This document shows, piece after piece, positions 16,418 through 64,000 of a stretch of DNA of 64,000 nucleotides. The position numbers and the translations under genes are program-made. The stretch is from Allobosea sp. ASV33 (GTDB lineage: Bacteria > Pseudomonadota > Alphaproteobacteria > Rhizobiales > Beijerinckiaceae), in contig NZ_JAELTI010000012.1 in NCBI RefSeq assembly GCF_016428755.1, positions 1-64,000 of the forward strand. Reading direction: 5' to 3'. Within the stretch, counting starts at the first letter, position 1; every line of letters starts with the position of its first letter. The notes under the pieces are model-generated. The model had not been told where the DNA came from and did not search any database. It saw nothing but the letters and a program-made list of their open reading frames with translations.

Positions 16418-16872
16418 GCGACGGATGGATTCCCGAACCGTATTTCGACGAGGTCGTGCCCGAGCCCAAGGCTTCCCCGACCGACTGGATTGGCGCGCTC
16501 GATGATGGAGCGCCCGCCCTGCTCGATTTCGACGGCAAGGTGGCGGAGCGAGCGTTACAAGACGGCGAGCGCCTGGATTTCTACGAGGTCCGAGCTTTCG
16601 GCGGCGCCACGCTGACATTCGCGGCGGATGGCACCTGGTCGGTCGATCGCGACCTGCCCGAAGGTGCCAACCACATCTACTGCCCCGACAACGAGATGGC
16701 CGGCAGCAGCGTCGCGGCGCTCGTGGCAGAGTCCAAGGAATGCTTCCGCGGGCACGATTCCGGGGATTTTGAGGCGGGCGAGGGCTACTGGATCACCTAC
16801 TGGTATTGGTCCGATCGCACGCCGTTCCGGTTCGACGCTGCCACCCGAAGCTTCGTGCAGGTGGCGTCATGA
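16414..16872 (+). CDS. Hypothetical phage protein, 152 aa
   Basis: An acidic 152-residue protein rich in Asp, Glu and aromatic residues (GYWITYWYWSDRTPF near the C-terminus), beta-rich in appearance. The ATG overlaps the primase stop (ATGA) and its end overlaps the next gene. Function unknown; it lies in the replication module. Confidence 0.6.
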   Translation: MSDGWIPEPYFDEVVPEPKASPTDWIGALDDGAPALLDFDGKVAERALQDGERLDFYEVRAFGGATLTFAADGTWSVDRDLPEGANHIYCPDNEMAGSSVAALVAESKECFRGHDSGDFEAGEGYWITYWYWSDRTPFRFDAATRSFVQVAS

Positions 16873-17273
16873 AGGTCACGCTCGATCTGCGCATTGGGAT
16901 CATCGCGCACACAAAGGCGGCAGCCGAGACGTTCGCGCGCGTGGCCGGCATCCCGCGAGCCGGGTGGTTTTACGCCTATCCGGACACGATGCGCGGCGCG
17001 TCGAACGTCATCTTCATGAAGGCCGTTGGCTGGGAGAAACGTCGCGACGCCGCCGAGATCGATCGCATGTTGGCCGGTTGCTACATCGCGTTCGAGTGGC
17101 GGGTGATCGCAGCGATGCAAGCGGCCGCCACGGTGGAGATGGGCGGCGTCACGACAGCCATGATCGACGCGGCAATGGTTGAGATGAAGAACCTCCACCC
17201 GCCGATGCGGCGTTCCGAGTGCGAGCGGTTTCTCCGCGCCGCCCTAGCGCCCGCGACCGAGGCGGCGTCATGA
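16869..17273 (+). CDS. Hypothetical phage protein, 134 aa
   Basis: A 134-residue product with mixed alpha/beta character (VAGIPRAGWFYAYPDTMRGA, later AAEIDRMLAGCYIAFEWRVI). Four-base overlaps on both sides place it in the replication operon. No recognised domain. Confidence 0.55.
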   Translation: MKVTLDLRIGIIAHTKAAAETFARVAGIPRAGWFYAYPDTMRGASNVIFMKAVGWEKRRDAAEIDRMLAGCYIAFEWRVIAAMQAAATVEMGGVTTAMIDAAMVEMKNLHPPMRRSECERFLRAALAPATEAAS

Positions 17274-48611: not shown

Positions 48612-48686
48612 TGGGGCGTCGCCAAGCGGTAAGGCAGCGGTTTTTGGTACCGCCATGCGGAGGTTCGAATCCTCCCGCCCCAGCCA
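48612..48686 (+). tRNA. tRNA-Gln (TTG anticodon)
   Basis: A 75-base cloverleaf with encoded CCA. Acceptor TGGGGCG pairs with CGCCCCA; the anticodon arm is GCGGT-TTTTGGT-ACCGC with anticodon TTG; the T arm is GGAGG-TTCGAAT-CCTCC. A tyrosine recombinase gene follows directly, so its 3' end is the likely attachment site of the second element. Confidence 0.97.
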
Positions 48687-48780
48687 GTTTCTCTTAAAGC
48701 ACTGTCATCGCAGCGGTTTCTCTGCCCTTTCCGGGGCGGCAACGCGATTTGCCCACCCGGTTGCTACAAAGGGCACCGCT

Positions 48781-50490
48781 TTGGCGCATCTCCTTCGCAA
48801 CGTCGTCCAGCGCAACAGAATCTTCCATTTTCGCCGCGTAATCCCGCTCGATCTGCGCCCGCGCTTTGGGCGGCGCGAGATTACCTGCTCGCTGCGGACC
48901 TCGGAATTGCACCTCGCCGGGATCAGGGCGCGCCGTCTATATCTAGCGGCGGAATCGCTCTTCGAGGAAAGCCGCGACAACCCGATGCTGACAGACGACC
49001 AACTCGCGGCAATCGTGCAGGATTTCTATGCTCATGTGCTGGCCGAAGAGAACAAGTTGCGCTTAAGGCTCGGAAGGATTCCTGAAGAGGTACGCACAAG
49101 CCGCGCCGAGCACTTCGGGCAGATCGCCGCCCAGGCTAGAGCCGATCTCGGCGCCAACGAATTTGGCAGCGTCTCCTTCATAACCCAGGCGATGATGCGC
49201 AAGCACAAGCTCGAAGGTCAGCTGGACGAGACGCAAACCCGGCAGCTGGCACAATCGCTGATGCGTGGGGGCATCGATCTCGCCGAAGCGGTCCAGGCCC
49301 GATATGCGGGCGACTTCAATTTCGAGCCGCGCGACAAGCTGCTCGCGCGCAAGGTCGAGGCCGTATTCAATCCGCCGCCGCTACCGCCGAAAGAGACGAC
49401 GACCGCCGATGGTCAGCCTCTTTTCGGTGTCGTCGCAGCGGCCTTCGTGACGAAGCAGAAGCAGCTGCGTCGTTGGGAGAACCAGACTGCCGGGCAGAAC
49501 GAGAAAAGCTACGAGCTGTTCAAGGCGATTTGCGGGGATCGGCCGTTGAGCGCCTATCAGCGCAAGGACGCCGCCCGGTTCAAGGATCAATTGGAACGGC
49601 TGCCCGCGGACTATGGCAAGGCAGCGATTTACGCCAGGAAGTCTCCAGCGGAAATCCTTGAGATCGATGCCGCCAGCGGCGGGAAAGCGGAAAGGCTGTC
49701 GATCCGCACGGTCAAACGCCATGTCTCGGCGTTATCCTCGCTTTGGGATGAGAGTATTCCTCAGGGCGCCGCGACCGACAAGATTTTCGCGGGCTTCAAA
49801 TTCCCCGCCCAGCAAAGAGCTCAGGACCAGCGGCCTATGTGGCGCCGCAGCGATTTGGCAAAGCTCTTCAGGACGCCTGTCTGGAGCGGTTGCAAATCCG
49901 AGGGACGCCGCTCCACGGCCGGCGGCCTCGTCATTCGCGACGAGAAATTCTGGCTGCCGTTGATCGCGGTGTTCTCAGGTGCTCGCCAGGAAGAAATCTG
50001 CCAACTCCATGTCGAGGATATTCGGCAGGAACAGGGCATCTGGCTCTTCGACATCAACATGAAGCCGCCGCGAAAGCTCAAGAACAAATCTGCGGTGCGT
50101 CTTGTACCCATCCATCCCGAACTCATTCGGCTGGGGCTGCTCGGCTATGTCGAGCAACAGCGTAAGGCTGGCCAAGTCCGCATCTTCCCCAATCTCCATC
50201 CCGGCGGAGCCGATGGCCGGCTCGGCCACGGGTTCACCAAATGGTTCACGCGCTATCGGCGCGATGTCGAAGTTTATGAAGAGGGGCGTGACTTCCACTC
50301 CTTCCGCCACAGCGCGACGACCTTCCTGCACCAGGGTCGCGTAGCGGACTCCATTGTAGATCGTCTCACGGGACATACGACGCCCGGCGAGACGGCGCGC
50401 TACACGAAAGAAACCGACCTCGGGCAGCTGAAGGCCGCGATTGATACGATCGATATCGAAGTCGACTTCGGAGCGCTCTACGAAACTTGA
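48781..50490 (+). CDS. Tyrosine recombinase of the tRNA-Gln element (DUF6538-type)
   Basis: A site-specific recombinase unrelated in layout to the prophage integrase. The N-terminus (RNRIFHFRRVIPLDLRPRFG) matches the DUF6538/min-Tn arm-binding-like domain. Catalytic residues are the Arg in FSGARQEEICQL, HSFRH and the Tyr in TARYTKETD. The open frame reaches back to 48655, inside tRNA-Gln, so the real start must be later. A TTG at 48781 just before the conserved block is chosen (569 residues). A GTG or ATG start was not found there, so the exact start is uncertain. Its position beside tRNA-Gln indicates it inserts there. Confidence 0.88.
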   Translation: MAHLLRNVVQRNRIFHFRRVIPLDLRPRFGRREITCSLRTSELHLAGIRARRLYLAAESLFEESRDNPMLTDDQLAAIVQDFYAHVLAEENKLRLRLGRIPEEVRTSRAEHFGQIAAQARADLGANEFGSVSFITQAMMRKHKLEGQLDETQTRQLAQSLMRGGIDLAEAVQARYAGDFNFEPRDKLLARKVEAVFNPPPLPPKETTTADGQPLFGVVAAAFVTKQKQLRRWENQTAGQNEKSYELFKAICGDRPLSAYQRKDAARFKDQLERLPADYGKAAIYARKSPAEILEIDAASGGKAERLSIRTVKRHVSALSSLWDESIPQGAATDKIFAGFKFPAQQRAQDQRPMWRRSDLAKLFRTPVWSGCKSEGRRSTAGGLVIRDEKFWLPLIAVFSGARQEEICQLHVEDIRQEQGIWLFDINMKPPRKLKNKSAVRLVPIHPELIRLGLLGYVEQQRKAGQVRIFPNLHPGGADGRLGHGFTKWFTRYRRDVEVYEEGRDFHSFRHSATTFLHQGRVADSIVDRLTGHTTPGETARYTKETDLGQLKAAIDTIDIEVDFGALYET

Positions 50491-52851: not shown

Positions 52852-53925
52852 GTGACATCCGATTTCCCCGACACCTTCGCCCACGTTCCGCTGCTGCCCG
52901 AGGCACTCCTTCGTCAGCACCATATTTTCGAGCCGCTGGACCACCGCTTCCGCTCGGCCGCTCGTCTCCTCCAGAGCATCTGGCGGCAAGATCGCGAATT
53001 GCCGATCGGCAGCTACAAGGTCGGCACGAAGCGCAAAAAGCTCGGCTCCCGGATCAGTCCCACCGCCGCGCGAGCCGGCGCCAACTTCATGCTGCCGGCC
53101 ATCGCCTGGCTCGTGCGCCGTGAACTCGCCTATCGCGAGCCCGCCGCAATGATCGACGAGCCGCGGCTCTACGGCAATCTGCTCAGCTCGATGCCCCTGG
53201 CCTTCAACGTCTTCGGCCTGCTCAAGCTCGACCTGTCCTTTGCCTGCCGCGTTCTCGGCGAACTCTTCCCCGATCTCGCGGGCGCCAAGGTTCAGGCCGT
53301 GCTGTTCGAACACTCGCCTGGACGCGGCGACCCGGCGCTGACCGGAGACCGCAGCGCCTTCGACGTGTTTCTCCGCTATGAGACGTCAGCCGGCAGCAGG
53401 GGCTTCGTCGCGATCGAGATGAAGTACTCGGAATCCTGCCAGGAGCCGGTGGCGGCGATCCGGCCGCGCTATGACGACCTCGCCGACGTCTCCGGGCTGT
53501 TCGTCGATGCACGGAAGCCGACGCTGAAGGCTAATCCGTGCCAGCAGCTGTATCGCGAGCACCTGCTCGCCCAAGCCATGCTGATGCGCGGCGACTACGA
53601 CGAGGGCCGATTCGTCGTCATCGCGCCACAGCTCAACACACTCGTTGCGAGCGCCGTGGCCAGCTACAAGGCCGAACTCAACGCGGCTGGTGAGGATCAG
53701 GTCGGCTTCGCCAGCATCACGCTGGAGGACACCATCATCGCCATCGCGATGGCCGGCGAGGAGGAGTACGCGACCCGGCTCTATCGGCGGTATTGCGACT
53801 TCCAGTTGGTCGACGGCGAACTCAACCTGTTCTGGGCTGGCGACGGCCCGATCGGGGCAGCCAGCGAGCCCACCGCCGTGACCGCTGGCGGTCCGCTCAA
53901 ACTCCTGCCGGGAGGGCGTGCGTGA
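52852..53925 (+). CDS. Putative restriction endonuclease (PGN_0703 family, PD-(D/E)XK)
   Basis: A 357-residue protein resembling the PGN_0703 family of putative restriction endonucleases. The nuclease core is seen as DRSAFDVFLRYETSAGS, with the catalytic Asp, followed by FVAIEMKYSE with the Glu-x-Lys pair. Flanking helical segments (NPCQQLYREHLLAQAMLMRG) are typical of the group. No paired DNA methylase is present nearby in this element, so it may act alone or depend on a host modification. The ATG at 52852 is used. Its stop overlaps the GTG start of the DUF2958 gene. Confidence 0.75.
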   Translation: MTSDFPDTFAHVPLLPEALLRQHHIFEPLDHRFRSAARLLQSIWRQDRELPIGSYKVGTKRKKLGSRISPTAARAGANFMLPAIAWLVRRELAYREPAAMIDEPRLYGNLLSSMPLAFNVFGLLKLDLSFACRVLGELFPDLAGAKVQAVLFEHSPGRGDPALTGDRSAFDVFLRYETSAGSRGFVAIEMKYSESCQEPVAAIRPRYDDLADVSGLFVDARKPTLKANPCQQLYREHLLAQAMLMRGDYDEGRFVVIAPQLNTLVASAVASYKAELNAAGEDQVGFASITLEDTIIAIAMAGEEEYATRLYRRYCDFQLVDGELNLFWAGDGPIGAASEPTAVTAGGPLKLLPGGRA

Positions 53926-54272
53926 GCGCGCCCTTCATGCTCCCGGCCGAACGCGAGCGCCTTCTCGCCAACGGCCGGGCTAGCGCGGCGGGCGAGGACG
54001 TCGATCCGATGCCCGTCGTGAAGCTCTTCACGCCCGATGCCAACGCGACCTGGCTCCTGACCGAGCTCGACCCGGACGATCCCGGCATCGCCTTCGGCCT
54101 CTGCGATCTCGGGCTCGGCGCACCGGAGATCGGCTACATCGCCTTTGCCGAGCTTGCCGGGGTTCGCGGGTTCCTCGGCCTGTCGATCGAGCGAGACGAG
54201 CATTTCCGGCCGGACAAGCCGCTCTCGGCCTATGCCGCAGCGGCACGCGCTCTGGGCAGGATCATCGCTTGA
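53922..54272 (+). CDS. DUF2958 domain protein
   Basis: A 116-residue DUF2958 protein: FMLPAERERLLANGRASA, VKLFTPDANATWLLTELDPD, then IAFGLCDLGLGAPEIGYI and the C-terminal LSIERDEHFRPDKPLSAYAA. The family is common on plasmids and integrative elements of proteobacteria, with unknown function. The GTG at 53922 overlaps the nuclease stop, and its TGA overlaps the next TTG start. Confidence 0.88.
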   Translation: MSAPFMLPAERERLLANGRASAAGEDVDPMPVVKLFTPDANATWLLTELDPDDPGIAFGLCDLGLGAPEIGYIAFAELAGVRGFLGLSIERDEHFRPDKPLSAYAAAARALGRIIA

Positions 54273-55053: not shown

Positions 55054-56586
55054 ATGAAGGCTTCTACCCCCTCCACAACCGCCCCAGGGCACGGCGAGCT
55101 CGATGAGTTTCAGGCAGCGTCGCTTGTTGGAATGTCGCCTAAGTTGCTTCGTTGGTTCACGAGCTATGCGCCGAAGCAAGACTCCGACCGCAAGCTGAAA
55201 GCGCGAAAGGAGGAGGAGCAGATTTACTTCGAGCGGACCGAGCTCGAGGGCTTCAATGACTGGCTGAAACTTCCATGGCCCTCGAAGGACGGCGCCCGGC
55301 CGCCAGTGCCTGAAGGCATTAAGCGGGAGATCAAGGACGAAGCCGGCGGCGAATGCGCCATCTGCCACGCCCACTCGGACTCCTGCGAAGCTGCCCACAT
55401 TGTCCCGGTGGCAGCGACGAAGAACAATCACCCCGAGAACCTGATATGGCTTTGCGCCAATCACCACACAAAATTCGATAAGCACACCTACGGCCCCAAA
55501 GCCGAAAGCGCCGAATTCGTCGCTAGCTTCAAACACGCGCTGACGCATTACCGGCGGGCGCTATGGCAAATGCAAGCCAAAGCGACGGGGCAGCTCTTCA
55601 CCATGCTGAAGGCTTGCGAGAGCCTGAATTCGCAGTTGGCGACCGCCAAGACTCCAGACGAAGTCTCCACCGTGATCAGGCTAGCGAAGGAGGCCTTGGC
55701 CCAGGTGCCGAAAATGGCGCCTACCTCCAAGGAGGACTCGCACTTTGCTGCTTTCGAGTCCATGTCGGCAGAGTTCAAAGCCCTCGCCAACAGCTCGACT
55801 GAACTGCAGGATATCGGGGCAACCCTGCATCTTGCCACAGCGGTAAAGGCCGAATTCGCTCAGCGGGCGGGCTATGTGAATTGTCCCCTTTGCGCGGGTA
55901 GCGGTCATTACAAGGGTGAGGACTGCCCAGCCTGCGGAGGCGAAGCAGAGTTGACGGAGAGCGAAGCGAATGCCGTAGACCTCGCCCGCTACACGCTGGT
56001 TGAATGTCCTCTCTGCGACGGAAAGCGAACCTTCAAGGGGCGTGACTGCCCCGCCTGCGGCGGCGATGGTGATCTGGAACGACGCTACGCCGAACAAATC
56101 GACACCCGCGAGTGGGAGGAGATCGACTGCCCGGTTTGCGATGGCTCAGGAAAGCTGCGTGGTCAGGACTGCCAAGCCTGTGGAGGTGAAGGCAAACTTG
56201 AGCGTCAACAGAGCGACAGGATTGACGTACGGGACTATGCGCTCGTCGATTGTCCCGTTTGTGAAGGCAAAGGACGATTTCGGGGGGAGCAATGCCCCGC
56301 CTGCGATGGCGAGCGCGAGATGGATCAGCGCTATACCGATCAGATCGATTTGCGAGATTACAAGCGCGTTGAATGCCCCGTTTGCGAGGGCGCCCGCGAC
56401 TGGTGTGGCCGCCCATGCCCCGCCTGCGATGGAGAAGGCGAGCTCGATCAACGTTACATTGATCGGATCGACATGCGGGATTTTCAGATGGTCGAATGCC
56501 CCGCCTGCGGAGGGCAGACCGGCAACTACTGCAAGACCTGCGACGACGAACGCAAGATCCCGCGCTTCATTGCCGAGCAGCTCTAG
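55054..56586 (+). CDS. HNH nuclease with helix-turn-helix and six 41-residue zinc-knuckle repeats
   Basis: A 510-residue multidomain protein. Residues 15-72 look like a MerR/excisionase-type DNA-binding helix-turn-helix (FQAASLVGMSPKLLRWF, later RTELEGFNDWL). Residues 99-145 form an HNH nuclease: CAIC zinc pair, AHIVP with the catalytic His, NLIWLCANHH. A helical spacer (about 155-270) follows. Residues 277-496 are six repeats with exact 41-residue period; each has CPxC, ten residues, then CPAC (CPLC277, CPLC318, CPVC359, CPVC400, CPVC441, CPAC482). These resemble DnaJ-type cysteine-rich knuckles and should bind two zinc sites per repeat or per pair. The function is probably nucleic-acid targeting or cleavage in defence; this is inference. 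Confidence 0.88.
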   Translation: MKASTPSTTAPGHGELDEFQAASLVGMSPKLLRWFTSYAPKQDSDRKLKARKEEEQIYFERTELEGFNDWLKLPWPSKDGARPPVPEGIKREIKDEAGGECAICHAHSDSCEAAHIVPVAATKNNHPENLIWLCANHHTKFDKHTYGPKAESAEFVASFKHALTHYRRALWQMQAKATGQLFTMLKACESLNSQLATAKTPDEVSTVIRLAKEALAQVPKMAPTSKEDSHFAAFESMSAEFKALANSSTELQDIGATLHLATAVKAEFAQRAGYVNCPLCAGSGHYKGEDCPACGGEAELTESEANAVDLARYTLVECPLCDGKRTFKGRDCPACGGDGDLERRYAEQIDTREWEEIDCPVCDGSGKLRGQDCQACGGEGKLERQQSDRIDVRDYALVDCPVCEGKGRFRGEQCPACDGEREMDQRYTDQIDLRDYKRVECPVCEGARDWCGRPCPACDGEGELDQRYIDRIDMRDFQMVECPACGGQTGNYCKTCDDERKIPRFIAEQL

Positions 56587-56852: not shown

Positions 56853-56902
56853 ATGCCGGAGAGGCATCGGCACGATCGATTTCTGGTATTGCAAGAGTGG
56901 CG

Positions 56903-59350
56903 ATGTCCAAGACAAGAAACAACCATTACGTCCCGCAATGGTACCAGGAAGGGTTCTTCGAACCAGGCCGCTCGTCCCTTGCCTTTGTGGATATGGCGCC
57001 GGACCGCAAGATCCTGCCGGATGGGCGCGTAATCACCCAAAACGGTGCGTGGAACGATACGCCGACTTCAAAGGCGTTCGTTCAAAGGGACCTGTATTCG
57101 ACGTTCTTTGGAACGTCGGTCAACGACGAGATCGAGCGGCGCCTTTTCGGTGACATCGACGGTAGGGGCTCTCAGGCGATTCGAGCATTTACTGGCACCA
57201 ACGTGGGCGAGTGGCACAAGCATTTTCAGACGTTTTTCGAGTACCTCGATATCCAGAAAATCCGAACGCCAAAGGGCCTGGATTGGCTGAAAGCTCAGTA
57301 TCCCAAGCTCTCGCAGAACGAGTTGATGTACGAGATGCAGGGTATCCGCATGATGCACTGCACGATTTGGGTCGGCGGCGTGCGCGAAATTGTCTCCGCT
57401 GAAAACTCCGACGTGAAGTTCATCTTCAGCGACCACCCGGTGACGATCTACAACCATGCCATTCCCCCAACGCACGCGATGGGCGCGTATCCGCTCGATC
57501 CCGGCATTGCACTGAGGGCGTCTCAAACGATTTTCCCGCTGAACCGCGACCTGTGCCTGATCCTATCGAACTTGGAGTACGCAAAGGATCCGAGCACTGG
57601 CCCACTCGAAAAGCGGACCTTCGCGCGAAATTACCGGCAGTCTATGACCCGGATCGACGCGTTCATTCGCACCAGGAAGCTGACCGCGGAGGAGGTCACG
57701 CAGTTCAACTTTGTTCTGAAGTCGCGTGCGCGGCGCTACATCGGCGGCGGCCGCAAGGATTGGTTGTACCCAGAAAAGGCGATCTCGCAGCCTTGGGCCG
57801 AACTAAGGAAAACGTTTCTGCCCCCAAAGAACGAGCTTTTCCACTTCGGTGGCGAGATGTTCGCGAAGTACGAGAGTGGACATGTCCAATATCAGGATGA
57901 ATTTGGCAGGACCGAGAAGCCGCGTGACTTCCTGATCAAGGCAGCGCCGAAGCAGCAGCTGCGCCCGGGAGACGTCTGCGGGTGCGGATCGGGAAATTTC
58001 TTCAAGGCGTGTTGTCAGGCCAAACCCCAAGTGCTGCGCCCCTCTTGGAATGAGCGCAGCATCCGGGAGCGGAACATCATGCTGCAAAACGGGATCGTAC
58101 GGATCCTGGGGCTCGGCGGGGAGAAGGACTGGATTCAAATCCGGCGCGAACTCACCGATGAGAAGATCAAGAACATTTATTTCCTTTACGAGGCCCTTTG
58201 GCCGCTGGAGACCGATTTGCTCGCGCTGTTACCGAAGCCGGACGGCGTCCCTCGCGCGGTCTACACGGGCTCAATCCACCCTTCATCAATCGTCGACTTC
58301 GCGTTGGCGGCTCCGCTATATTTCGGCGAGATGATTGTCGCGCACCCGTTCATCCACTCGGGAGTCATAGCGAAGAAGTACCGACCTACCGATAATCCGA
58401 GGAGCTATAGGCAGGACTTTCTGAAAAGCGTCATGTTCTTCATGACGATCATGCCGCTCGTGCAACTCGGCTTGGTCAATCTCATCCCCGATCCTTGTGA
58501 TTTCGATTTTCATCTCCGCGAGCAAATGTTGAGCATGGCGGGAGCGCGAGCGACCCTTATGCGGTTGGATCCGGATAAAGAGCCACGGCTGAAGAAGCAC
58601 ATGGAGGCGGATGCCCTGCGCAGCATGATGCTGATGCCCCCGGATGCGCTGCGCAGGCAACTCCGCAAACTCAATCCTGGAATGAGCGACGACGAAGTTG
58701 AGGCCACAATGCGCTTCGCCGAGCGCAAGCGAGAGCTCGACCCTCTGGCTGTGCTTCAGGACGGTTCATTGGAGGGCGAAGAAGGCGGGCAGATGAGCAT
58801 GTTCAAGCTCGCGCCAAATTTCGAGATAACCATGTACCTGGCCCAGGCGACAGGTGCCTGCATCGTTACCGACAGCCCTTTCCGCTGGAGTGAAGTGAAG
58901 AGCGCCATCCGCAGCCGGGGGGTAACTGCGACGCCCGGACTTGCCCGGTTTTCGGAACAGATGGAGGCTACAAAATTCGCGTTCCCGCAGGACGTCATGG
59001 ATGTCGCCGACCACGCATTGACGAAGACCTGCGGGGGATATCCGGATTTGTTCCGGGACCTATTTGGCTATCTGTCTCACCTGGAGGAACGTGGACAAAA
59101 GCCAAACCGGGAAGCGCAGTTTGCTGGCCGGTTCCCCAAGATACATGCGGCAGCCCAAGCCGTTATTAAGAAGTCAGGCGTCGTCGCAAAAGAGGGCCGC
59201 GTATCCTGCGTTTTGCCGCCCGGAGGCATTCAGGACAACACGATCAACCGCCTGCTTTTGATGTCGAGCTCGGAACGGCACCTTTCGAGCGTGCCGATGG
59301 CGTTCTTCATTGAAGATTGCGGGACTGGCAAATGCTCAATACTCGCTTGA
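56903..59350 (+). CDS. DUF4238 protein with internal SEC-C zinc motif
   Basis: An 815-residue protein. The N-terminus RNNHYVPQWYQEGFFEPG is the hallmark of DUF4238 (consensus NHYVPQFYLK), and this domain runs to about residue 280. A SEC-C type zinc motif lies around residues 353-373 (RPGDVCGCGSGNFFKACC). The C-terminal 430 residues (e.g. DAIL-like helices, VTDSPFRWSEVKSAI) are not recognised. The DUF4238 segment near FSDHPVTIYN and the later TDSPF are similar short blocks, suggesting two related halves. ATG at 56903 is preferred; GTG at 56897 is an alternative. It may be a defence or DNA/RNA-processing protein, inferred from neighbours. Confidence 0.8.
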   Translation: MSKTRNNHYVPQWYQEGFFEPGRSSLAFVDMAPDRKILPDGRVITQNGAWNDTPTSKAFVQRDLYSTFFGTSVNDEIERRLFGDIDGRGSQAIRAFTGTNVGEWHKHFQTFFEYLDIQKIRTPKGLDWLKAQYPKLSQNELMYEMQGIRMMHCTIWVGGVREIVSAENSDVKFIFSDHPVTIYNHAIPPTHAMGAYPLDPGIALRASQTIFPLNRDLCLILSNLEYAKDPSTGPLEKRTFARNYRQSMTRIDAFIRTRKLTAEEVTQFNFVLKSRARRYIGGGRKDWLYPEKAISQPWAELRKTFLPPKNELFHFGGEMFAKYESGHVQYQDEFGRTEKPRDFLIKAAPKQQLRPGDVCGCGSGNFFKACCQAKPQVLRPSWNERSIRERNIMLQNGIVRILGLGGEKDWIQIRRELTDEKIKNIYFLYEALWPLETDLLALLPKPDGVPRAVYTGSIHPSSIVDFALAAPLYFGEMIVAHPFIHSGVIAKKYRPTDNPRSYRQDFLKSVMFFMTIMPLVQLGLVNLIPDPCDFDFHLREQMLSMAGARATLMRLDPDKEPRLKKHMEADALRSMMLMPPDALRRQLRKLNPGMSDDEVEATMRFAERKRELDPLAVLQDGSLEGEEGGQMSMFKLAPNFEITMYLAQATGACIVTDSPFRWSEVKSAIRSRGVTATPGLARFSEQMEATKFAFPQDVMDVADHALTKTCGGYPDLFRDLFGYLSHLEERGQKPNREAQFAGRFPKIHAAAQAVIKKSGVVAKEGRVSCVLPPGGIQDNTINRLLLMSSSERHLSSVPMAFFIEDCGTGKCSILA

Positions 59351-59514: not shown

Positions 59515-62500
59515 TCAGCGGAAACGAATGGTTCGCTGTTCGAGCGACTGATAGCGGCGATCGACCTCAATTTCGGGATCTGCGGCCACGAGGCGATCCA
59601 AAATATTGCCCAGGTCGTAGTTGATGCCGCTGGTGGGGCCGAAAATCAGCCAGAGGAGATCGAGCACATGGTGCGGGTACGCCTCAGGGGCCTTGCTCTG
59701 CTTAATCGGATAAACGCTGGCTCGCTCGCGAGCATAGGGACTGAAATAGGGTCGCAGCTTCGCCAGAGCGTCTGGGAAGTGCTTCCCCGAGCTGACCGCA
59801 AGCGCCATTAGGTTGTGGTTAAGCGCGTCATCAACATAGCGGCGTTCCTTTGGCCATACTCGGTCGAAGAAGGGCGCGACCATTCTCTCCCAAGCCTCCT
59901 CGGCGCCAGCATCATCGTTGTGCATCCAGCGAACCAAGACATCGAGCGTTCCGGTACGAATCTTGAGCGGGGCCTCGCGTAGGGCGCGGCTAACATCGGC
60001 TTCGCCGATGCCCCACCGGTCGGGATGGTCGCCGCACACCGAGGCGAGCGCTGGTCGCAAAATACCGGATGCGATCTGCGCGGCAGAACCCGAACCAGTC
60101 CGAGCCTCGACAATGCCGCGCAGCACAGCTTTGGGCGCCACCTTAGTGACTTCAGGCGTAATGTTGCTGTTCGAGACAAGAACCGAGCGCAATTCTCGCG
60201 CCTCGTCCGTCTCCGCAATCAAGCGCGGTAGGAGATGCGTCTCGACCAGCTGGGCATCGACAAGGAGCAAAAAGGCGAAGTCGTGGATGAGCACCGCGCG
60301 CGCGATGATGCCGGCTTGGCTGTCGTCGGCCGCGACCAGGGCGAGGCGGGCGCGCTGGCGCGCCTCGTGCGGCCCCGCGGTCTTGCGCGTGTGATCGAGC
60401 TCCTGGAGCTGGACTTGGGCGAACCGGCCGGCGGCGCGGTTGATCGCGGCCTCGTAGAGGTTTTTCTCGAAATGGATCTCATAGTCGGCGAGCCGGATCG
60501 CCGACCACAGCCGGTCGAACCAGTCTTCGAGTTTGGTGATACGGCGCCGCGGACCGAACATTAGCAGGTCGACCACTCTAGCTGCGATCGGCTCCAATGC
60601 CTTAGTATTCAGCGCTTCGAGATGTGCAAGTGCGTCGACCGTGAGTTGGTCGCGCAAAGGCGTTTCCTTTTCATCGTTGCGGAACGCTAGTGCGGCCAAG
60701 AGATCGCCCCACAAAGCGATGTTGGGTACGGTCAGCTCGGCAGCGGCTAGCGCTTGGAGCGCCCCCTTGGGATCCGAGCGGCAATAGCTGCTCCACCCCA
60801 TCTGCTGGTCAATGTTCGAACTCTGGCGGAGCTCTTCGGCGATCTTGAGGCGATCATCGGGAGCGGCCTCGACGATTGGGGTACTGTCGCCGACGACAGA
60901 GCGCACGCCATAGCTATAGGACCCGAAGAAGTCGCGATCCTCGACTGCGCGGTCCAGATGGGACCTGCGCGCCACGATCGCATCGAGCTCGTCGCGCCCC
61001 ACCTTTGAAAGGACCCCGGCGGCTTCGAGCATCTTGAGGCGCAGCCAGACCACGCTGTCGCGGGCGTGGGCGCGCCAGTCGACCTGGCCCTCCTCCAGGG
61101 GATAACGCGCATAATAGGCGTTGCCGCTGGTCCGGATCCGGATCTCAACCGCCTCAAGCAGCTCGGGCGTGGCCTGCGAAGCCCGATCGCGCAGCACCAA
61201 TGCGAACTCGCGACGGATGATCCAGAAATCGGCCTCCTCAAGGTCGAGCAGCAGCTGTAGCGCTTCGTTCGCCGAGAAGGTTGCGAAGTCGCGCATGGCA
61301 TGGAGGAGCAATCGTGCGCCCATTCGCCCGGGCCATGTCCGCCACTGCGCGGCGTGCGCACGGACCCGGTCGCGATCGATGGCGACCGCCTTGGCAAAGG
61401 CGTTCACGATCGTGCGCACCAGGAAGAGCACGCCGTTATGATGCTCGTTCTGGCTGTGATCCTCGACCGAGGGGACGCTGAAGTCGCTCGTGTCGTAATC
61501 GTCTACGATCATTCCGAGGTCGACTGATTGCTGAAGCGAGGAGCGCAGCGCCTCGTTGCCGAGCTCGAAGATACGCACGGCGTGGCCATCGAGCGCATTC
61601 AGCGCCTCGATGATCTCGGTCGCGCTATATTCATCAACCACATGGAGATCGAGCGTGGTGAGGCTCGAAAGGCGCGGTTCGGCAGCCTCCGGCTCGGCCA
61701 CCTCGTCCTCCTCACCCTCGACATCTAGACGCCGCGGCGGACGCGCAATCAGTACCGGCGCCACCAGCGCCACCGCCTGGGCGAGCTCACCATCGAGGAT
61801 TAGGCCGGATTCGAGCTTCTGCTTGAGGGCGTAGGCATTCTCGTCAAACTCACCAGCTCCGGCGCGCTCGCCCAAACTGGTAGAGAGCAGGATACGCCAA
61901 GCCTTGAGCCAGAAAGGCGATGCGGGTGGGCTTTGGCGTAACCGCTGGTCGAGACGCGAGAGGAAGTCGCGGCCGAGAATCGCGTGCCATTCGACCGCGG
62001 TCAAGAAGCGCTGGCGATCCTCGAAGTTGCGCGCGATCCAGGCCGGGATCACCCAAGAGGCATCCTGCGTCGACCAGAGCTTATTGTCCTGGAGTATGCG
62101 GAACCAGCGCGGATTGGTGATGACGTCGACCGCGACCGGCCAGAGATCACTGTGATCGGTGAATAGCCAGGAGAGTTCGCGCAGCTGCTGAGCGGTGAGC
62201 GCACTGCTGTTGCCGGCGAAGATCTGCCGAGCTCGGTCCTCGCGCGACCGTTTGGGACGCTCGATGACGTCGGCGAGCTGATGAAGGTCGCCCCATAGTG
62301 GTGAGTGATCGGGAACCCCTGTCGTCGAATTGTACTTGCAATAAGCGAGCGGCGTGACCGCCAACGTGCCCCAGCCAGCCTCGGCCTCAATCGGATCACG
62401 CTCATACGCGTCGAAGGCATAGACCGGGCGGAGGTCTGGAAAGCGTGCGCGATCAGATTCCAGCACATTGAGGAAGTAGCGCACCGGCGCGTCATTGGCG

Positions 62501-63150
62501 CTGTAGCCGATGAGGATGATGGTCTTGCAGCGGGCGAGGTCGAATAGGAAGCGCGAGGCCCAGCCCGAACGCATGTAGGCGTCGCCATAGTCGGCGCTAG
62601 TAAGTACGAGCGGCGTCGCATCAAGGTCGAGCGTCGGATCGAGCAGCCGCCCATGGATATGGATGATGCCTGCGAAACCCGCGCCGCCCGGTGTAGGCAG
62701 CGATTGGCCGGCGAAGCTCTGCGGCCGGACCAACTCAGCCGGCTGCCCCAGTGCTCGCTCGAGCAGCGTGTCGAAATTCGTGGTGACGGCGAGGACGCGG
62801 TTGCTGATGTCGCGCGAGAGCCGTAGCACCGTTCGATGTTGGTCTAGGCGGGGCGCGGCGGGCACCGCGAGCAGCTTGGAGGCAACGCGGACCATTGCCG
62901 CGGGGTCGGCGAGGCGGCGGCCAAGGGCGCCCAGCACTTCCTCGAAACGCTGACCGGCATAGGAGCGCTGCTCGGAGGCATCCATGTCGACGCCTAGTCG
63001 CGCATAGGTTTGGTCTACCAGCGATTTGAAGTCGGGAAGCTGCGGCGCGCTAATGCCGGTACCGCACAGAAATACGACTTCGCCGGCTATCAGTGCGTCG
63101 ACGAGCGCAGAAGGGAATTCCGGGCCATGATCCGAGAAGCGCAAGGACAA
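59515..63150 (-). CDS. SIR2-domain antiphage protein candidate (Dsr1-like)
   Basis: A 1211-residue protein with an N-terminal SIR2-type NAD-binding domain: VVFLCGTGISAPQLPDF (about residues 25-41), AVTTNFDTLLE (121-131), IIHIHGRLLD (162-171) and IILIGYSANDAPVRYFL (211-227). The remaining 950 residues are helical and repetitive in feel (DUF4020-like). A single large SIR2 protein of this type matches the Dsr-type antiphage NADases, in which phage sensing triggers NAD depletion. Which phage protein triggers it is unknown. It is convergent with the DUF4238 gene; the 59351-59514 gap holds no gene. Confidence 0.85.
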   Translation of the reverse strand: MSLRFSDHGPEFPSALVDALIAGEVVFLCGTGISAPQLPDFKSLVDQTYARLGVDMDASEQRSYAGQRFEEVLGALGRRLADPAAMVRVASKLLAVPAAPRLDQHRTVLRLSRDISNRVLAVTTNFDTLLERALGQPAELVRPQSFAGQSLPTPGGAGFAGIIHIHGRLLDPTLDLDATPLVLTSADYGDAYMRSGWASRFLFDLARCKTIILIGYSANDAPVRYFLNVLESDRARFPDLRPVYAFDAYERDPIEAEAGWGTLAVTPLAYCKYNSTTGVPDHSPLWGDLHQLADVIERPKRSREDRARQIFAGNSSALTAQQLRELSWLFTDHSDLWPVAVDVITNPRWFRILQDNKLWSTQDASWVIPAWIARNFEDRQRFLTAVEWHAILGRDFLSRLDQRLRQSPPASPFWLKAWRILLSTSLGERAGAGEFDENAYALKQKLESGLILDGELAQAVALVAPVLIARPPRRLDVEGEEDEVAEPEAAEPRLSSLTTLDLHVVDEYSATEIIEALNALDGHAVRIFELGNEALRSSLQQSVDLGMIVDDYDTSDFSVPSVEDHSQNEHHNGVLFLVRTIVNAFAKAVAIDRDRVRAHAAQWRTWPGRMGARLLLHAMRDFATFSANEALQLLLDLEEADFWIIRREFALVLRDRASQATPELLEAVEIRIRTSGNAYYARYPLEEGQVDWRAHARDSVVWLRLKMLEAAGVLSKVGRDELDAIVARRSHLDRAVEDRDFFGSYSYGVRSVVGDSTPIVEAAPDDRLKIAEELRQSSNIDQQMGWSSYCRSDPKGALQALAAAELTVPNIALWGDLLAALAFRNDEKETPLRDQLTVDALAHLEALNTKALEPIAARVVDLLMFGPRRRITKLEDWFDRLWSAIRLADYEIHFEKNLYEAAINRAAGRFAQVQLQELDHTRKTAGPHEARQRARLALVAADDSQAGIIARAVLIHDFAFLLLVDAQLVETHLLPRLIAETDEARELRSVLVSNSNITPEVTKVAPKAVLRGIVEARTGSGSAAQIASGILRPALASVCGDHPDRWGIGEADVSRALREAPLKIRTGTLDVLVRWMHNDDAGAEEAWERMVAPFFDRVWPKERRYVDDALNHNLMALAVSSGKHFPDALAKLRPYFSPYARERASVYPIKQSKAPEAYPHHVLDLLWLIFGPTSGINYDLGNILDRLVAADPEIEVDRRYQSLEQRTIRFR

Positions 63151-63311: not shown

Positions 63312-64000
63312 CTATCGTCCCTCAATCCGAAGCTTCGCACTGAGATCCTCGGAGAGGCCGTCCCGGTCATAGGATTTTGCAAGCTCGTGGAGCGTAGCGG
63401 CCAGTTGCGGATGCGTCGCTTCGAGCGCGAGTGCGTGGGTGCGAAAATAGCCGGCGAGCTTCCGCTCCTGGTCGCCGCCCTCATAGGCGCCCCGCGAGGA
63501 CATTCCCCGCTTATTGATGCTGCCAGTATAGAAGCCGCTCAGCATTTCCTCCGACGAAAAGCCCTCTAGCAACGACCGCGCACTCTCCCCGGGCCAGATC
63601 CCATCCGCACCGTCCGGCGCATAAGCAAGAACTTCACCGAGCGTGATATCGCAAACCGTTAGCCGATCGTGCTCCGTTGCCAGGCGCCGAGCCTCCTCCA
63701 CAAAGCGGGTTGCCTGATCGGCATCGATGGGTCCATTCGGAGTTGTCCCCGGCTGCCGCCGACAGGCATGCAGAATGTGCCAGGCGTTCTCAGCGGCGCC
63801 TTTGTGCGCCTCATCGACCTCGCGAGGCGGCCCGTTGCGAGGCTTGTAGACGAGGCACAGCAGTTCGACGAAGATCTCAGGCTTCGCCATCAGGACACGA
63901 TAAAGGGTTCTGGCGTGATGCTCGCCTTCGAAACCGAACGCTCTGATAAGCGCGAACTCGAGCCGCACGAGTCGCAGTTCGTCGATGGTTCCGGCCTCCT
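63312..64000 (-). CDS. C-terminal part of a large unrecognised protein (cut by window edge)
   Basis: The frame is open from the right edge to a TAG at 63312-63314, with at least 228 codons visible. It contains ALIRAFGFEGEHHARTLYRV, EIFVELLCLVYKPRNGPPRE, an Asp/Glu-rich middle (DADQATRFVEEARRLATEHD) and SRGAYEGGDQERKLAGYF. The style is that of the C-terminal end of very large defence-island proteins, but no family is assigned. The gap 63151-63311 before the SIR2 gene likely holds its promoter. Confidence 0.7.
   Translation of the reverse strand, partial: EAGTIDELRLVRLEFALIRAFGFEGEHHARTLYRVLMAKPEIFVELLCLVYKPRNGPPREVDEAHKGAAENAWHILHACRRQPGTTPNGPIDADQATRFVEEARRLATEHDRLTVCDITLGEVLAYAPDGADGIWPGESARSLLEGFSSEEMLSGFYTGSINKRGMSSRGAYEGGDQERKLAGYFRTHALALEATHPQLAATLHELAKSYDRDGLSEDLSAKLRIEGR

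Follow-up and report, generated by a model that had tools for sequence, protein, structure and literature searches.

What would a nuclease do with six evenly spaced zinc modules? The question is raised by a gene in a 64,000-nucleotide stretch of genomic DNA (hereafter the window), whose 510-residue product comprises, from the N-terminus, a winged helix-turn-helix, an HNH nuclease, a helical stalk and the six modules (Table 1). A preliminary description made from the sequence had recognised the nuclease, the helix-turn-helix and the array, held that nothing known was like the array, and suggested that it might read a repeated nucleic-acid or protein partner or serve as a molecular ruler for cutting.

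Table 1. Features of the nuclease gene and its surroundings, in window coordinates
Feature	Position	Strand	Basis
tRNA-Gln (ttg), one island end	48612..48686	+	
Island integrase	48655..50490	+	Pfam Phage_integrase 4.9e-10; phrog_1 3.3e-32
PDDEXK_13 protein, island cargo	52852..53925	+	Pfam 3.5e-102
Gene for winged-HTH / HNH / zinc-ribbon-array protein	55054..56586	+	ATG start, 510 aa
Winged helix-turn-helix, excisionase/MerR type, residues 15-71	55096..55266	+	Predicted structure and weak Foldseek matches
HNH nuclease core, residues 101-144 (C101xxC104, H115, N129, C134, H137, H138)	55354..55485	+	Pfam HNH_2 2.1e-9
Helical stalk, residues 153-272	55510..55869	+	Predicted structure
Zinc-ribbon unit 1, from C277	55882..56004	+	
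Zinc-ribbon unit 2, from C318	56005..56127	+	
Zinc-ribbon unit 3, from C359	56128..56250	+	
Zinc-ribbon unit 4, from C400	56251..56373	+	
Zinc-ribbon unit 5, from C441	56374..56496	+	
Zinc-ribbon unit 6, shortened, C482 to C496, loop of 7	56497..56541	+	
DUF4238 protein, next gene downstream of the nuclease gene, 817-aa frame	56897..59350	+	Pfam DUF4238 1.6e-13
Dsr1-like SIR2 protein, defence-type neighbour	59515..63150	-	PADLOC Dsr1 9.1e-85

Architecture of the nuclease

The presence of an N-terminal helix-turn-helix is supported, as a predicted winged domain, by a model of the head (residues 1-152; mean pLDDT 86, pTM 0.78). In Foldseek searches of the PDB it resembles the winged helices of the RdfS excisionase, RacA, BldC and Xis (probabilities of 0.99 for 8dgl, 0.96 for 5i44 and 0.87 for 6ama), although these resemblances are weak, with every E value above 0.001, and Pfam gave no match to this domain at E ≤ 1. 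The nuclease core that follows scores 37.5 bits against the Pfam HNH_2 cut-off of 21, which places it in the HNH superfamily, as the preliminary description had it. The HNH fold is of the beta-beta-alpha metal type and includes conserved His, Asn and His residues as well as Cys zinc ligands; against this general background, some of the core residues in Table 1 would bind metal. The head model predicts such a fold, with strands at residues 112-115 and 130-133 and a helix at 135-142. The core residues are invariant in all eight rows of the alignment; the copy from Methylobacterium aquaticum, which stands outside those rows, has Gly in the column of N129. Overall, the head model resembles the HNH domains of EcoKMcrA, Gme HNH, Cas9 and Cap5, again with every E value above 0.001. 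Neither the head model against the PDB nor the full model against the PDB and BFVD gave a Foldseek match below E 0.001, and residues 14-152 found no solved structure by phmmer at E ≤ 1.

The stalk is weakly conserved across the alignment. For the whole protein, AlphaFold2 with the eight rows gave a mean pLDDT of 81 (76-91 for the array blocks) and a pTM of 0.41; the domains are thus predicted fairly confidently, their mutual arrangement is not. Comparison with the relative in Rhizobium lentis yields a dN/dS of ~0.10 overall, a rough value since dS is 2.3 (and saturated in the array), which at the sequence level indicates a gene under purifying selection.

Within the array, the first CxxC motifs of the six copies follow one another in five steps of exactly 41 residues, so that the period originally described, with starts from 277 to 482, is confirmed. 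The spacing of ten residues that had been given for all copies between the two CxxC motifs holds in copies 1-5 and is seven in copy 6; likewise, the second motif is CPAC as described in copies 1, 2, 4 and 5, whereas copy 3 has CQAC and copy 6 CKTC. When residues 273-510 were shuffled, none of 20,000 sequences contained two in-register full units, compared with five in the real sequence.

A rare and patchily distributed family

Relatives with the same architecture were found at 67-28% identity, giving a family of nine uninterrupted members, the window protein included, and one broken copy. The domain order and the uninterrupted array are therefore conserved, and the outcome named beforehand as speaking against the array, its absence from every homologue, was not seen. 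Full-length relatives on genome contigs include those of R. lentis (L003, 66%) and a Stenotrophomonas species (L004, 40%), and the plasmid search gave one, on a plasmid of Methylobacterium aquaticum (L024, 38%). Of the 199 genomes sampled from the window's own taxonomic family, 159 gave a match at E ≤ 0.001, yet besides the window the sole strong match is in G071 (52%, 5e-119); the remaining matches listed (E from 2.7e-9 upward) fall nearly all on the array and in a few cases on the HNH part, and the proteins matched on the array are, by their length, probably DnaJ-like.

A profile of the N-terminal part, searched at E ≤ 1e-12, matched 1 of 385 genomes sampled from the class, 3 of 398 from the phylum, 3 of 397 from the order and 1 of 61 from the genus, where the samples overlap and the window's genome is counted in each. 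This profile newly identified the members in G919, which belongs to another class, and G956, as well as the broken copy in G834; in the order of G919 it matched 1 of 244 genomes, G919 itself. In the broken copy (L034:8500-10612), a stop and changes of frame disrupt the gene. Viral contigs contributed two members (L030 and L035), and three further viral loci match only the part around the HNH domain. Against phage records, the whole protein gave no match (tblastn, 1e-5) and the array alone one weak match (1e-2). In the material searched, members are few and unevenly spread.

A tRNA-Gln island carries the window copy

The window copy is located on an island of ~21 kb that extends from the tRNA-Gln gene to contig position 69843 and is bounded by 18-base direct repeats, the last 18 bases of the tRNA gene recurring exactly at contig positions 69826-69843, beyond the window (BLAST E 2e-4). 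G+C content, in 4-kb steps, is 0.64-0.70 before the island, 0.58-0.63 inside and 0.68-0.71 after it. The frame of the island integrase begins inside the tRNA gene, and its true start is probably later. At 52852-54272 of the window the PDDEXK_13 / REase-ARP protein is followed by a DUF2958 protein.

Downstream of the nuclease gene, the DUF4238 protein carries a weak SEC-C-type stretch in its middle (NCBIfam, best E 0.17), and the nine remaining loci of the family lack a relative of it. The Dsr1-like protein matches Dsr1 in NCBIfam at 7e-109, scoring 365 bits where the cut-off is 1400. Beside it, on the same strand, lies the gene for a 1261-residue protein (window 63312-64000 to contig position 67097, minus strand; L040:6313-10098) that gave no Pfam or PADLOC match at 0.001, and the two genes may form a pair.

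Mobile elements and defence genes near many members of the family

Mobile elements and defence genes keep company with the nuclease gene at many loci. At L025, GajA and GajB are found ~2.3 kb to one side and a pAgo gene ~2.2 kb to the other. In R. lentis, PDC-S06 and AbiEii flank the gene, and Zorya A (ZorA) is found further upstream; the upstream PDC-S06 gene, which is of ATPase type, has no relative at other loci. At L033, pAgo, SIR2-PNTD, PD-T7-1 and a Lit-like gene (1.3e-13) are near the nuclease gene; we note that SIR2-PNTD adjoins pAgo there (L033:2649-5974), ~2.5 kb from the HNH-array gene. TniB and TniQ genes are ~3.6 kb away at L032, with RES and metallo-beta-lactamase genes between, and the Stenotrophomonas copy is beside a transposase. 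The M. aquaticum copy sits on a plasmid that carries no gene annotation. Of the two viral-contig copies, L030 adjoins a regulator gene in a phage region where tail, tape-measure and origin-nicking genes were recognised, presumably P2-like judging from these genes, and L035 is near a minor tail protein gene.

The defence association was counted with PADLOC at E ≤ 1e-30 among neighbours of at least 180 residues within ~6 kb at eight loci, a set that omits L024 and L035, includes the broken copy and contains a Stenotrophomonas locus only 6.9 kb long. At least 10 of 51 neighbour proteins had defence matches, in at least four of the eight loci: L025 (GajA, GajB, pAgo), L033 (pAgo, SIR2-PNTD, PD-T7-1), L003 (ZorA, PDC-S06, AbiEii) and the window (Dsr1). 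At the other four, no PADLOC match at 1e-30 was identified among the matches listed. A control of eight stretches, drawn from four of the same contigs, gave six families with one member each (three RtcR-type, MzaA, RT_UG29 and RTasDnaG-like), that is, at most 6 of 61 proteins, in a small control whose matches are not assigned to single proteins or loci; some of these may be cross-matches, and RT_UG29, which carries a defence name, may be real. The direction of the difference is clear, the sample small.

A comparison of all open stretches of 50 residues or more showed no neighbour recurring at more than two of the ten loci, so that the nuclease gene is probably a one-gene unit. The shared neighbours are two pairs, the DUF2958 protein (window and L033, where the relative at 16805-17185 is 46% identical over 92 residues) and pAgo (L025 and L033).

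Location on mobile elements, taken alone, would also fit a selfish nuclease. Such a mobile-element maintenance endonuclease would use the HNH domain to cut a target in a way that favours spread or retention of its carrier, and the zinc arm would be its DNA-binding part. The integrase island, the phage regions of L030 and L035, the plasmid, the transposase and the TniB/TniQ genes agree with this explanation, as do the excisionase-like winged helix, the patchy distribution and the broken copy. We nevertheless consider it unlikely, because the carriers are of differing kinds and share so few neighbours, no intron or intein stood out in the data at hand, the array is acidic, and defence genes are neighbours at no fewer than four of the eight loci scanned.

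Array rules and a proposed protein-sensing arm

The nine uninterrupted members, in which copy number was tabulated as the preliminary description had proposed, contain 51 units, four to seven per protein: seven in G071, six in the window, L003, L004, L024 and G919, five in L030 and G956, and four in L035. Inner units have a loop of 10 residues in six proteins, of 11 in L030 and of 12 in G956 and L035, and no protein mixes lengths among its inner units; in last units the loop is 7, 10, 12 or 15. The linker between modules is 23 residues long in 41 of 42 cases, which argues for a fixed pitch, and the 41 linkers of this length carry Asp at position 15 in 38 cases and Val at position 22 in 37. Accordingly, the pitch is 41, 42 or 43 residues depending on the protein and uniform within each, the one exception being the first step in G919, which is 39. 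With linkers included, and counting Lys, Arg, Asp and Glu only, the net charge of the array is negative in all nine members.

The closest solved counterpart of the unit is anti-TRAP (RtpA). As a sequence query against solved structures, the array matched the DnaJ zinc domain at 5.1e-5 and anti-TRAP at 3.5e-4. Anti-TRAP is a CPxC-x10-CPxC zinc ribbon, with the same spacing and the same strand order, a two-stranded sheet plus a hairpin, as the predicted unit. AlphaFold2 places the strands of unit 1 at residues 274-276, 285-286, 289-290 and 299-301, with a short helix after them (302-307), and PMC11255114 gives anti-TRAP strands at 9-11, 20-21, 24-25 and 34-36 and a helix at 38-50; the strands thus coincide after addition of 265, whereas the anti-TRAP helix is longer. 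Anti-TRAP is described as a 53-residue protein with one ribbon per chain that forms a trimer via its C-terminal helix and docks on protein (PMC11255114). Unlike the window protein, anti-TRAP has no nuclease. Foldseek gives a probability of 0.99 for the anti-TRAP structures 3ld0 and 2bx9, at an E value of 0.37, and the cut-offs of the anti-TRAP families are missed (59.3 against 65 in NCBIfam, 27.3 against 32 in Pfam).

Multi-finger arrays that read nucleic acid are a known design, and the exact pitch with its near-constant linker would suit an array that reads phage DNA or RNA module by module, with the HNH domain cutting at a distance set by the array. We regard this as quite improbable, as array and linkers are net acidic throughout the family, a copy number of four to seven argues against one fixed array length, and the closest solved module docks on protein (PMC11255114). 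Of the two partners originally envisaged, nucleic acid is consequently weakened by the acidic array, and a protein is favoured by that charge together with the likeness to anti-TRAP. A DnaJ-related co-chaperone or protein-quality factor that gained an HNH domain is highly improbable, despite the Pfam DnaJ_CXXCXGXG match to four stretches of the C-terminal part (1.5e-16) and the match to the solved DnaJ zinc domain, since searches of Pfam and NCBIfam gave no match to a J-domain (HPD motif) family, the top-scoring full-length DnaJ model of NCBIfam reaches 63.4 bits against a cut-off of 377.2, and the units have the ten-residue spacing of anti-TRAP.

The homology of the array to the central zinc domain of DnaJ, with its CxxCxGxG motifs, is detectable. 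DnaJ, however, has two unequal zinc sites lying between its other domains, in contrast to the regular array of the window protein. A DnaJ-type chaperone was rejected on the lack of a J-domain match and the regular spacing. Nor did the homologues prove to be a well-characterised DnaJ-like or HNH family with a known non-defence function, the second finding that had been named as adverse.

The reading that we favour, with a probability of roughly 0.6, is that of a horizontally mobile anti-phage nuclease that works as a single gene and senses a protein through its acidic arm; a role in defence is likely, given the association with defence genes. The winged helix-turn-helix and the HNH domain would together form a DNA-binding and cutting head, and the stalk would hold an arm of four to seven anti-TRAP-like ribbons at the constant pitch set by the 23-residue linkers. 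The arm's likeness to anti-TRAP and its acidic charge lead us to propose, as its ligand, a protein that is produced or exposed upon infection. Binding would free or concentrate the HNH head and thereby lead to cutting of the phage's DNA, or of the cell's own in abortive infection; alternatively, the arm may be held against the head until an infection protein displaces it. As a speculative and rather improbable extension, the arm of this anti-phage nuclease might act as a multivalent molecular comb, whose constant pitch would grip the repeated subunits of a phage polymer, such as a tail tube, a capsid lattice or a protein filament on replicating DNA; binding tight enough to switch on the HNH domain would then require the repeating phage structure in its assembled form.

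Comparison with other HNH proteins of defence systems

Cap5 of CBASS and EcoKMcrA are HNH nucleases with a sensing domain, which is SAVED in the former and a modified-base reader in the latter. Their HNH heads resemble the head model (Foldseek probability 0.97-0.98, E 0.2 and 0.013), and the window protein differs in having a winged helix-turn-helix and a zinc-ribbon array instead. The Retron Ec78 effector complex and Septu PtuB likewise involve an HNH nuclease of a defence complex (probability 0.80-0.84); they work with PtuA and are not known to carry a zinc array.

The closest defence candidate is PDC-M01B, the PADLOC model for the partner gene of PDC-M01, which matches the array at 2.6e-21 with the best stretch at 294-364 of its 366 positions. 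A frame in G633 (L039), HNH by eye and located behind an ATPase-like frame, is matched by the middle of the model (89-275); from these matches, the model appears to combine an HNH part with CxxCxGxG motifs at its C-terminal end. The defence candidates thus probably already include an HNH protein that ends in a short CxxCxGxG tail, and the statement that nothing known is like the window protein was too strong. The likeness has its limits: by length, the zinc part of PDC-M01B has room for about two modules compared with six in the window array, and the best match of the window gene is to this zinc part only. Both are found in a defence context. Two reports (PMC11811056, PMC11758030) present PDC-M01 as a candidate made up of two genes, whose detection overlaps with that of Septu; Septu and PDC-M01 feature a PtuA-type ATPase next to the HNH gene, and the window family differs in that no ATPase neighbour recurs. 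A long, even array combined with a winged helix-turn-helix in a one-gene setting was not found among the literature matches listed, from titles and abstract openings with few subscription papers.

If the protein is a defence nuclease, its arm of tandem zinc ribbons, even in pitch and variable in copy number, would be a sensing module for which our searches turned up no description, and the small regulator anti-TRAP would be connected with immune sensing. The number of units can be changed one at a time, and the number of weak contacts that make a trigger would thereby become directly measurable.

Duplication history of the units

At the DNA level, four copies of the window array are seen in 123-base steps with 60-76% identity to a reference copy over 95 bases, which points to a long-established protein repeat, not a recent duplication. 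Among eight proteins, position-by-position kinship of units is clear only for the window and R. lentis pair, where units at the same place are 62% alike and those at other places 43%. The mean likeness of units within one protein is 68% in G956 compared with 45% in the window, which suggests that homogenisation by duplication explains some members. In L035 (478-1809), the units are so alike by eye that the linker recurs nearly letter for letter, a sign of recent unit duplication.
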